64,000 nucleotides of DNA from Bdellovibrio sp. (GTDB lineage: Bacteria > Bdellovibrionota > Bacteriovoracia > Bacteriovoracales > Bacteriovoracaceae). Where the stretch lies: assembly GCA_016187935.1 (NCBI GenBank), contig JACPIU010000015.1, forward strand, positions 1 to 64,000. Direction: 5' to 3'. Below, one piece after another: positions 43,750 to 49,623 of the stretch. The translations under genes and the position numbers were made by a program. Below the pieces are notes generated by a model. It was not told the origin of the DNA, made no database searches, and worked only from the letters and a program-made list of their open reading frames with translations. Each line of letters starts with the position of its first letter. The stretch's first letter is position 1.

Positions 43750-43832
43750 CCTGCGATAGATTCGAGACCAGGCAATATTGCTCAGTACATCCCATTTTCT
43801 ATTTAAGCTACAATAACTGTGGAGGATAGAGA

Positions 43833-44567
43833 ATGTCGGAAAGACCAATTGATACACAAAAGTTCGATTTGAATGATCCTCTGGCAGGACTGGCACAAGA
43901 ATATTTCAGCGGCCTTTCCCCGGAGATCGTTGCCAAGGCGCAGACTGCCTGTCTGGATGTTTGCCAGAATTTCAAAGGTAATGTTGATTTAAGCAAGGCA
44001 ATTCTTCTGTGGTCCCAAGAATCGCTCTATCATGAGATTGAACAAACTCGACTTGCCGCTTTTTATGCTGCCGCCCTCTCGCAAAAAATTGATTGGATGG
44101 GCGCCAAATCATTAGAGCGGTTATTGATGGGGTGTTTCTTTAAAGATTTTGGGATGATGAAGCTCCCCGCGGTAATTCGCGGCAAGGCCCCTGCCAAAAT
44201 GAATCCTGAGGAAGCGGCCCTTTATCAAAAACACCCAGAAGAAGGAGTTAATTTTTTATGCCAGCTTTCTTCTGTCGAAGAGGCGGTGAGACATGTGGTT
44301 TATCAGCATCATGAGTGTGTTGATGGCTCTGGCTTTCCCAATCATCTAAGCAATATAAAATTATACCCCTTGGCCAAAGTGGTGGCCTTGGCGGATTTTT
44401 TCGCGACTTCGATAATCGAAGACAAAATCTTACCTCTGGAAGCATTGAAACGTTTTATGTCAAATAGAGCTGCGCTGGCGAAATATGATCCTGATATTAT
44501 TCGTTCTCTGGTAAAGGTATTCATAAAAAATGGTGAAAGTAAAAAAAATGAGGGAGCAAGAAAGTGA
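43833..44567 (+). CDS. Degenerate HD-GYP-type protein
   Basis: 244 aa. The HD-GYP layout is visible: FFKDFGMMKLP (normally xxHDIGKxxIP), YQKHPEEGVNFL, VVYQHHECVDGSGFPNHL, and YPLAKVVALADFF. The catalytic HD is KD here and GYP reads GFP, so phosphodiesterase activity against cyclic-di-GMP is doubtful; the HHE motif is kept. GGAGG before the ATG, TACAAT further up. Its stop overlaps the start of the receiver-domain gene, so the two probably work together. Confidence 0.85.
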   Translation: MSERPIDTQKFDLNDPLAGLAQEYFSGLSPEIVAKAQTACLDVCQNFKGNVDLSKAILLWSQESLYHEIEQTRLAAFYAAALSQKIDWMGAKSLERLLMGCFFKDFGMMKLPAVIRGKAPAKMNPEEAALYQKHPEEGVNFLCQLSSVEEAVRHVVYQHHECVDGSGFPNHLSNIKLYPLAKVVALADFFATSIIEDKILPLEALKRFMSNRAALAKYDPDIIRSLVKVFIKNGESKKNEGARK

Positions 44568-46478: not shown

Positions 46479-47690
46479 ATGTGGGGAGTTGAGGTTGGTG
46501 TCTTGTTGGGTGGACTGGCACTGGGTTTGGCCTTGGGATGGTTCGTGCGTCATAAAAATGCCGAAAAGGAAAAAGCGCAATTACAGCAAAAAATGCTCGA
46601 GGTAGAGAAAGTCCGAATCGGTCTTGAGCATGACCTTAAAAATATCAAAGAATCGCAGGGGGAAAAAGAACGCCTGAGTCAGTTGCACTTTGAACAACTG
46701 GCGCACAAGATTTTCGAAGACAAGCAAAAATCCTTCCAGGAAATGTCCACCAGGGGATTGCAAGGGCTGCTCAATCCTTTTAAAGATCGCTTGGCAGAAC
46801 TGCAAAAGAAGGTGGAAGAGACCTATGAGAAAGAGGGGCGGGAAGTTTTCTCTCTGCGCCAGGAAATCCTGCGCATGATGGAGATGGGGCGCAAGATGGA
46901 GAATGAGACAAAAAATCTCACCATGGCGTTAAAAGGAGATGTCAAGGCCCAAGGAAATTGGGGTGAATTAGTTTTGGAAAAAATCCTTGAGCATTCAGGT
47001 TTAAGATCGGGTGAGGAATATATTGCTCAGGCCGAAGGGATGAACTTAAAAAGTGAGGATGGACGCGCACTGCGACCCGACGTCATCATTAAATTGCCCG
47101 AGGGGAAAAATCTGGTCATTGATTCCAAAGTCTCGTTGGTGTCCTATGATCGTTTGATTGCCGCCACGACTGAGGAAGAACGAAACAAGCATAAGCGGGA
47201 TTTTCTGGTTTCGGTTAAGGGCCATATTGAAATATTGGCAGGCAAAAACTATCAGGCCATTGAAGGGTTAACAACGCCGGATTTCGTGCTCATGTTTGCT
47301 CCTATCGAAGGTGCCTTATCCATGATTTTAGAAGGTGAAAAAGATCTCTTCACTTATGGTTGGGATCGCAAAATTATTTTGGTTGGACCCACTACACTCC
47401 TGGCAACTCTAAGAACCGTGACGGCCATTTGGAAACAAGAGCGGCAACACAAGAATGCCCTTCAGATCGCCGAGGTCGGTGGGCGGCTTTATGATAAGTT
47501 TGCCTCTTTTGTGGATGACTTCGATAGAATGGGTAAGTACATCAAAGATTTGCAAACACAGCATGATACAGTGACAGGAAAACTTAAACACGGGCGCGGT
47601 AATCTGATGGTCTCGGTTGAGAAATTGCGTGAGTTGGGGGTTAAGTCCACCAAGGTCCTTAAAGATGTAAGTGGTGAAGAATTGTCTTAG
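46479..47690 (+). CDS. rmuC: DNA recombination protein RmuC
   Basis: 403 aa. N-terminal membrane helix (VGVLLGGLALGLALGWFV), a coiled coil (about 30-150) and the RmuC nuclease-like core: GNWGELVLEKILEHSGLRSG, RPDVIIKLPEGKNLVIDSKVSL, TPDFVLMFAPIEGALSMIL, ILVGPTTLLATLRTV. The core resembles PD-(D/E)xK nucleases; RmuC limits recombination at inverted repeats in E. coli. ATG 46479 follows GGGGGC; a TTG at 46452 is possible. Single gene. Confidence 0.93.
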   Translation: MWGVEVGVLLGGLALGLALGWFVRHKNAEKEKAQLQQKMLEVEKVRIGLEHDLKNIKESQGEKERLSQLHFEQLAHKIFEDKQKSFQEMSTRGLQGLLNPFKDRLAELQKKVEETYEKEGREVFSLRQEILRMMEMGRKMENETKNLTMALKGDVKAQGNWGELVLEKILEHSGLRSGEEYIAQAEGMNLKSEDGRALRPDVIIKLPEGKNLVIDSKVSLVSYDRLIAATTEEERNKHKRDFLVSVKGHIEILAGKNYQAIEGLTTPDFVLMFAPIEGALSMILEGEKDLFTYGWDRKIILVGPTTLLATLRTVTAIWKQERQHKNALQIAEVGGRLYDKFASFVDDFDRMGKYIKDLQTQHDTVTGKLKHGRGNLMVSVEKLRELGVKSTKVLKDVSGEELS

Positions 47691-47833
47691 AATCAATAAG
47701 CAAAATAGGCCAGTCGCTGCGCTTTGGAAGGATCATGATCCAAGACCTACGAGCATGATAGGAAAGTTCTTGGAAAAATGCCGTAGTTGTGTAAATATTC
47801 CGCAGCAATTTCAAGCTCAGCGGAGAATAGATA

Positions 47834-48697
47834 ATGAATAAAATCGCATTTTTACTGTGCTCCTTTTGGCTGGCATCAGCTTCTCATGCCCTTGATGTTG
47901 CGGTATTCGGGGATGGTGGTAAGAAAACCGAATCGACGCTGCAAATTCTTCAATCCATGTTGAAGTACCAAGTGAAGGATGCGGTCTTGCTGGGTGATAA
48001 CCTCTACGACATGAGCGCCTCTTACCACGAAATCTGGGATGATTGGATGGCCAACGGGATACGCTTTCCTGTCGTGGCCTTAGGGAATCATCGTCTGTCC
48101 TATCAGCATGAGCGCGAGTATTTTGGCATGCCGGATGAGTATTATGCGAAAATTGTTGGAGATGTGCGCTTTATTGTGCTCAATTCGGACAATCATGCAA
48201 ACGTCCTGGCGCAACGGGATTTTTTCCTGAAGGAAATGGGGCAGAAAAAAAACCGCCAAATCACCTTTACCTTTCTCGTTTTCCATCATCCCCCGGCCAC
48301 CTTGAGTCCCCGTCACCAATGGATTGAGAAAAAACTTTTTCATGACACATTTCGCCCACTCCTACTTCAGTATCGTGGCAATATTGATGGTATTTTTGTT
48401 AGTCATGATCACGCTGCGGGAGTTTATAGCTTTGCCGACATTCCCTTGTTGGTGTCCGGCGCGGCCTATGAGTTTTTTCCTCTTAACCCGGTTAATGGTG
48501 ATGTCTTTCCAGGCGTTGCGGTCAAGACGTTATGGATCTATCAACAAAAACCACACTGGGCCCGTCTTGAGACGTTTCCGAAGTCCGGCGAAGCCTATGT
48601 GCATTTTATAGAGGCCGAAAGCAAAGATAGTAAAGTAGTTTGCTCAGTTCTTCTCAAAATGAGGCAAATTACGCTCAAGCCGAACTGTAAGCAATAA
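47834..48697 (+). CDS. Exported metallophosphoesterase, purple acid phosphatase-like
   Basis: 287 aa. Signal peptide (IAFLLCSFWLASASHA) followed by the metal sites VAVFGDGG, VLLGDNLYD, ALGNHRLSY, FLVFHHPP and VSHDHAAG. The third motif reads GNHR rather than GNHD, and the GDGG/GDNLY pair fits the purple acid phosphatase-like branch. Probably releases phosphate in the periplasm. The gene lies 62 bases upstream of the FecR-domain gene. Confidence 0.88.
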   Translation: MNKIAFLLCSFWLASASHALDVAVFGDGGKKTESTLQILQSMLKYQVKDAVLLGDNLYDMSASYHEIWDDWMANGIRFPVVALGNHRLSYQHEREYFGMPDEYYAKIVGDVRFIVLNSDNHANVLAQRDFFLKEMGQKKNRQITFTFLVFHHPPATLSPRHQWIEKKLFHDTFRPLLLQYRGNIDGIFVSHDHAAGVYSFADIPLLVSGAAYEFFPLNPVNGDVFPGVAVKTLWIYQQKPHWARLETFPKSGEAYVHFIEAESKDSKVVCSVLLKMRQITLKPNCKQ

Positions 48698-48711
48698 TTT
48701 TTTAGTTTCAG

Positions 48712-48759
48712 ATTTCTTCCCTCCGAAATAAGAATGAGATTTCTTTCGAGGTAAGAAAT
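48712..48759 (+). promoter_or_regulatory. Long hairpin sequestering the ribosome-binding site of the FecR-domain gene
   Basis: The arm 48712-48728 (ATTTCTTCCCTCCGAAA) pairs with 48744-48759 (TTTCGAGGTAAGAAAT), giving 15 pairs with one mismatch and one bulged C around a 15-base loop. The GAGG Shine-Dalgarno (48748-48751) and the base just before ATG 48760 are inside the 3' arm. No T-tract, so not a terminator. It would block ribosome access unless melted or remodelled. Confidence 0.7.
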
Positions 48760-49623
48760 ATGAAGATCCATTTACAGTCTGTTTTTTTTCTACTGACCTT
48801 TTGCTTGGCCTTTGAGGCCCATACTCAGGGAATAAAGGGCGCTGATCCAGAATCGTCTCAGATGATCGATAATATGGTGGGCGAGGTTGTGTTGGTCAAA
48901 GGTGATGTCACCAAACTCCGTGCTGATAATAAAAAGGAGATTAAGGTTGGTACCGCCAATCAAATTGTGCAAGAAGGAGATACGATTATTACAGCGGCAG
49001 GGGGCTTTATTAAGTTGAAGATGATTGATGATAGCGTGGTTTCCGTCGGTCCAAATTCTCGCATGGTCTTTGAAAAATTTGCCTTTAAGTCAAAAAATGA
49101 TCGTCAGAGCGTCTATGGGTTTATTTCGGGAAAGATTCGGGCCCATATCCCCAATAAGGCCAAACCAGGGGACCTGGTTGTGAAAACCAAAACTTCCTCG
49201 CTTGGGGTGCGAGGAACGATTTTTGTTGGCAATATCAATACCAATAAGAAGGGAAATGATGTGACACAATTTGCCGTTGTAAAAGGCAGTGTACGTGTTA
49301 AAAATGAAATCAGTGGAGAAAGCAACAATATTGCGCAAAAAGAGAAAATCATGTCGATCACCCAGAAGAATGAGAGCGTTGTTGACTCTGGGACCTTGGC
49401 GTTGAATGACGAAGAGTTTAACAATCTGGTTTCTTATGATGATGAAAAAAGCGATCAGGAGCCGGTCTTCCTCGATGATTATCAAGAGGATAAACTTCCA
49501 GGACGACAAATCAGTTCTATTGGTGAACCTGAGTATGAATCAGGGGATCGAACAAAAAAATCCACTTGGCGGGAAAGGCAAGAACAGCTTAATCGACGCC
49601 TTCATGAGTATAATGCCAATTAA
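48760..49623 (+). CDS. Exported FecR-domain protein
   Basis: 287 aa. Signal peptide (LQSVFFLLTFCLAFEAHT), then a FecR domain: MVGEVVLVKGDVTKLRADNK, EGDTIITAAGGFIKLKMIDDS, VVSVGPNSRMVFEKF, VKTKTSSLGVRGTIFVGNI, AVVKGSVRVKN. The tail (about 215-287) is acidic, then charged with no known fold. FecR-domain proteins of this exported type often sense or scaffold in the envelope rather than work as anti-sigma factors. Start lies against the hairpin that buries the ribosome-binding site. Stop overlaps the convergent gene. Confidence 0.9.
   Translation: MKIHLQSVFFLLTFCLAFEAHTQGIKGADPESSQMIDNMVGEVVLVKGDVTKLRADNKKEIKVGTANQIVQEGDTIITAAGGFIKLKMIDDSVVSVGPNSRMVFEKFAFKSKNDRQSVYGFISGKIRAHIPNKAKPGDLVVKTKTSSLGVRGTIFVGNINTNKKGNDVTQFAVVKGSVRVKNEISGESNNIAQKEKIMSITQKNESVVDSGTLALNDEEFNNLVSYDDEKSDQEPVFLDDYQEDKLPGRQISSIGEPEYESGDRTKKSTWRERQEQLNRRLHEYNAN

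Follow-up and report, generated by a model that had tools for sequence, protein, structure and literature searches.

A predicted Shine–Dalgarno-hiding hairpin, retained in three congeneric species, probably acts as a translational brake on a FecR-domain gene

An earlier note on the window, the 64,000-nucleotide stretch of Bdellovibrio DNA analyzed here as a whole, described a hairpin that would bury the ribosome-binding site of a FecR-domain gene whose product is exported. Purine-rich Shine–Dalgarno (SD) sequences readily pair with pyrimidine tracts, and a single SD-hiding fold means little because such folds are fairly common. The locus raises the question of whether this stem is kept by selection and, if it is, how it would act on the gene behind it.

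Architecture of the leader hairpin and its sister loci

The main stem comprises 15 pairs in three runs (7+4+4) between positions 48712-48728 and 48744-48759, as read from the sequence and the predicted fold, and is interrupted by a C48719·U48752 mismatch and a bulged C48724. The two imperfect arms, the 15-nucleotide loop, the pairing of both GAGG and T48759 (the base preceding the ATG) and the absence of a T-tract all agree with the earlier description, which captured the main stem and overlooked an outer one. This outer stem adds five pairs beneath the main stem, across a G·A mismatch, and takes in two of the three AUG bases. The whole hairpin, of about 20 pairs, is thus predicted to hold the SD, which lies 8 nucleotides ahead of the ATG at 48760, together with part of the start codon; its calculated energy in the window species at 37 °C is −18.2 kcal/mol.

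Table 1. Coordinates of the genes and of the predicted hairpin elements in the window
Feature	Position	Strand	Remarks
Exported calcineurin-like metallophosphoesterase gene	47834..48697	+	stop TAA 48695-48697
Last 22 phosphoesterase codons	48629..48694	+	raised synonymous conservation; possible stem 48635-48644 / 48663-48672
Outer stem, 5' strand UUUCA	48706..48710	+	pairs with 48761-48765
Main stem, 5' arm AUUUCUU C CCUC	48712..48723	+	anti-SD strand
Upper stem, 5' strand GAAA	48725..48728	+	after bulged C48724
Loop	48729..48743	+	15 nt; short inner stem possible
Upper stem, 3' strand UUUC	48744..48747	+	
Main stem, 3' arm	48748..48759	+	includes SD GAGG 48748-48751
Outer stem, 3' strand UGAAG	48761..48765	+	contains U and G of the start codon
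Exported FecR-domain protein gene	48760..49623	+	287 aa; Pfam PF04773 at residues 74-179, E 2e-11

The loop and the SD also encode a mini-ORF, MRFLSR* (48734-48754; ATG AGA TTT CTT TCG AGG TAA), whose stop follows directly after the SD. We rejected this candidate as it is not conserved: one sister species has a TTG start, and the other has neither start nor stop.

We compared the locus, which lies in a genome of the Bdellovibrionales, with its counterparts in two congeners, GWA2_49_15 and isolate nzgw164. Both carry the phosphoesterase gene (67% and 62% identical), a gap of 62-64 nucleotides and the FecR gene (protein 78% and 71% identical) in the same order. The surrounding gene order is also the same, except that in both sisters rmuC and the phosphoesterase gene are separated by an additional gene (about 300 aa, without a Pfam match; L035:3042-3944; L036:3062-3961), which is absent from the window genome (window 47690-47834).

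About a quarter of the gap letters differ, yet each of the three species has this nested stem as its fold of lowest energy (−18.2, −17.4 and −18.8 kcal/mol), with the SD base-paired in each predicted leader and with a nearly constant gap length and stop-to-hairpin distance. In the three-species alignment, 87.9% of the 66 pair cells are standard, a share that falls to 42-61% if the partners are slid. Both sides have changed in three pairs, one of which depends on the placement of an inserted base, and one side only in five; four of the five outer pairs are unchanged. Loss of pairing in close relatives had been named beforehand as the outcome that would speak against the hairpin; its retention in both sisters supports, at the level of predicted folds, the proposal of an SD-hiding stem that likely controls translation.

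Strength of the fold against chance and against a DNA repeat

Within the window genome, whole-region shuffles folded equally well in 3 of 200 cases (z −2.3), and when the SD and start were held fixed and the 5' part was dinucleotide-shuffled, 5 of 1000 sequences hid the SD equally well (z 3.2). The cost of opening the region from SD to AUG placed the target 16th among 542 SD-bearing genes from about 0.8 Mb of the same genome, a background built with a simple gene caller and surely including some wrong starts, and 1st among the 128 of similar, low G+C.

The comparison between species, which rests on three sequences only, goes further. The consensus fold outscores 999 of 1000 column shuffles (z −4.8), and the conserved-structure z of −4.65 at the target was reached by none of 115 other orthologous start regions from two of the species; this rank among 116 regions is the strongest evidence for a kept structure. 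Taken singly, each sister is mildly unusual (67-78 of 1000 shuffles match it), and under simulated random substitution the stem stays as strong in about 9-10% of trials per sister. Within-pair shuffles reached the covariation score in 64 of 500 cases, so that with three sequences this measure does not reject chance.

It is nevertheless improbable that the pairing arose by chance or reflects a DNA-level inverted repeat (an operator) whose RNA structure has no role. The small number of sequences, the mild values for single sisters and the readiness with which pyrimidine and purine tracts pair all leave room for this explanation, against which stand the rank of the target as the best of 116 start regions and the way in which its pairing was kept. 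In the most diverged species nearly all of the 22 listed pairs are standard, about seven of them as G·U, and the match as a DNA palindrome drops to about two thirds. G·U is tolerated by an RNA stem and not by a DNA inverted repeat; selection on RNA is thus favored over a DNA operator because many Watson–Crick pairs changed to G·U.

A stronger-looking SD hairpin at 43786-43840 (43833), before an HD-domain gene, was tried and rejected as its arms differ in the sisters. In one sister a comparable hairpin, its arms quite different in sequence, encloses TTAAGCTACAAT, which is shared; the other sister forms none. TTAAGCTACAAT resembles a promoter −10 element, and given the promoter-like TACAAT in the loop of the 43833 hairpin, the 5' arm there may not be transcribed.

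Possible opening of the stem

We regard a genus-specific, cis-acting translational brake on the FecR-domain protein, kept by selection, as the likely reading of this leader. The hairpin probably does brake translation, in a manner already known in general: in SD-sequestering cis-repressive leader hairpins a local stem likewise pairs the SD and the start codon and should lower initiation, whereas the present case has no Rfam match and belongs to one genus and one gene. The computed part of this reading comprises the fold, the burial of the SD and the retention of both in three species through changes that keep the pairing. The mRNA would include the whole stem encoded in the gap between the two genes, and a search with a fixed consensus and an EM motif, which drifted, gave no convincing promoter-like site there. 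With the SD and part of the AUG held in this stem, ribosomes would be blocked at the FecR start, and the protein would be made little or only conditionally. The stem could be opened by an RNA-binding protein, a small RNA or a helicase, or might merely set a low rate, and it would insulate FecR expression from the upstream neighbor. Our literature search, partial in coverage, turned up no work on Bdellovibrio that dealt with FecR-domain genes or with leader hairpins of this type.

Under translational coupling, a rival reading, ribosomes that reach the end of the phosphoesterase gene would open the stem or would rescan, and FecR would be made only with its neighbor. The gene pair is conserved with its 62-64-nucleotide gap, and a terminator-like site is absent between the two genes. 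The hairpin, however, lies entirely 3' of the stop codon. A ribosome that ends translation at 48695 should cover the mRNA to about 48707 and thus touch only the first one or two pairs at the hairpin base, so translation of the upstream gene should leave the core stem closed and is unlikely to unfold it directly. Coupling at +50 nucleotides and more has been reported, with rpmI–rplT, at +52 nucleotides, as a case in which structure is unfolded, and reinitiation over such a gap is possible, whereas shifting the stop codon to a site far 5' of the f1 hairpin abolished coupling (PMC12548453). Coupled pairs of the rpmI–rplT type likewise combine a short conserved gap with a structure that hides the second SD (PMC12548453); the gap and synteny of the present locus fit this type weakly, and here the entire hairpin lies beyond the upstream stop codon. 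On balance we consider coupling rather unlikely. Within the upstream gene itself, the last 22 codons show a codon identity of 0.78 versus 0.55 for the gene (permutation p 0.003, for a region chosen post hoc), and the consensus fold of the possible second stem has a z of −2.5 (21 of 1000 shuffles); the codon conservation could be due to a promoter or to a second structure.

The earlier note had named two mechanisms for stems of this kind, RNA thermometers and parts of switches, and the two fared differently. That warming melts the stem and frees the SD is very unlikely, because opening is predicted to cost far more here than in the ibpA and ibpB leaders of E. coli. By the same method the cost amounts to 11.7-12.5 kcal/mol at 42 °C, against 3.9 for ibpA and 5.8 for ibpB, and to about 12-13 against 4-7 kcal/mol over 37-42 °C, about twice or three times as much. 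As in ROSE-like and fourU thermometers, the SD and AUG do lie directly before the gene in a stem that is imperfect (here a bulge and a mismatch) and rich in A+U, but this stem is predicted to be far more stable, the gene is not a heat-shock gene, and the predicted pairing of the SD holds at all temperatures between 5 and 60 °C in the window species and hardly changes in the sisters. The strand facing the SD (CCUC, ACUC and CUUC in the three species) provides neither a fourU opposite the SD nor the conserved ROSE anti-SD motif U(U/C)GCU, and Rfam gave no match at the gathering score and no thermometer family at E 10. A riboswitch-type switch finds no conserved aptamer-like part, the loop varying between species, and no Rfam match; the element also lacks the G+C-rich stem followed by a T-tract of an intrinsic terminator. 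In the wider sense, as a specific form of the brake in which a small RNA, an RNA-binding protein, a helicase or a ligand opens the stem and turns the FecR gene on, a switch is a tentative possibility. Sequestration of the SD by a very stable stem leads to near-silencing unless it is opened, and a stem as stable as this one would nearly silence the gene. With the 5' arm blocked, the SD is predicted to be mostly free (unpaired probability 0.95, 0.93 and 0.63 in the three species), and in the window a short alternative pairing, AUUUCUU/AAGAAAU, would then form a local hairpin before the SD. This alternative fold is, however, less favorable than the closed one by about 9 kcal/mol, and the loop shows no conserved resemblance to an aptamer or a binding site.

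Reach and meaning of the element

Pfam assigns the downstream protein a FecR domain only, and NCBIfam matches lie far below the cut-off, which does not identify it as a FecR anti-sigma regulator. A search of 39 genomes with a covariance model of the three sequences gave no convincing copy beyond the three orthologues; weak matches comprised five in other genomes (E 0.04-0.27) and one antisense at the same locus. FecR paralogues in the three species showed no like fold, with opening energies mostly low. Paralogues of the three species (L062, L064 and L057) have related leaders around CTATAATA with a shared downstream SD context, probably the conserved promoter of another FecR-domain gene.

Convergent SD hiding before FecR orthologues of other genera was considered and dropped: the 41 orthologue starts, three of them from this genus, had a mean z of 0.35, with five above 2, and showed no general trend, most orthologues of other genera having no SD-hiding stem of any kind. 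In the G030 orthologue (L161, G030:C7:34866-35699, minus strand), an unrelated stem of about 15 pairs hides an AAGGA SD, a single case among the 41 that may be due to chance. The fold described here is confined to this genus.

A more specific proposal, which we put forward as speculative, is that the brake belongs to a genus-specific riboregulator of the Bdellovibrionales, a very stable SD-and-AUG clamp that a trans-acting factor opens and upstream translation is unable to open, perhaps together with the second upstream stem. If true, this clamp would switch on an envelope FecR-domain protein. The leader, having survived rank-based controls, offers a concrete and testable comparative case, and it shows how a kept SD-hiding stem can be told from the many chance ones in a genome.
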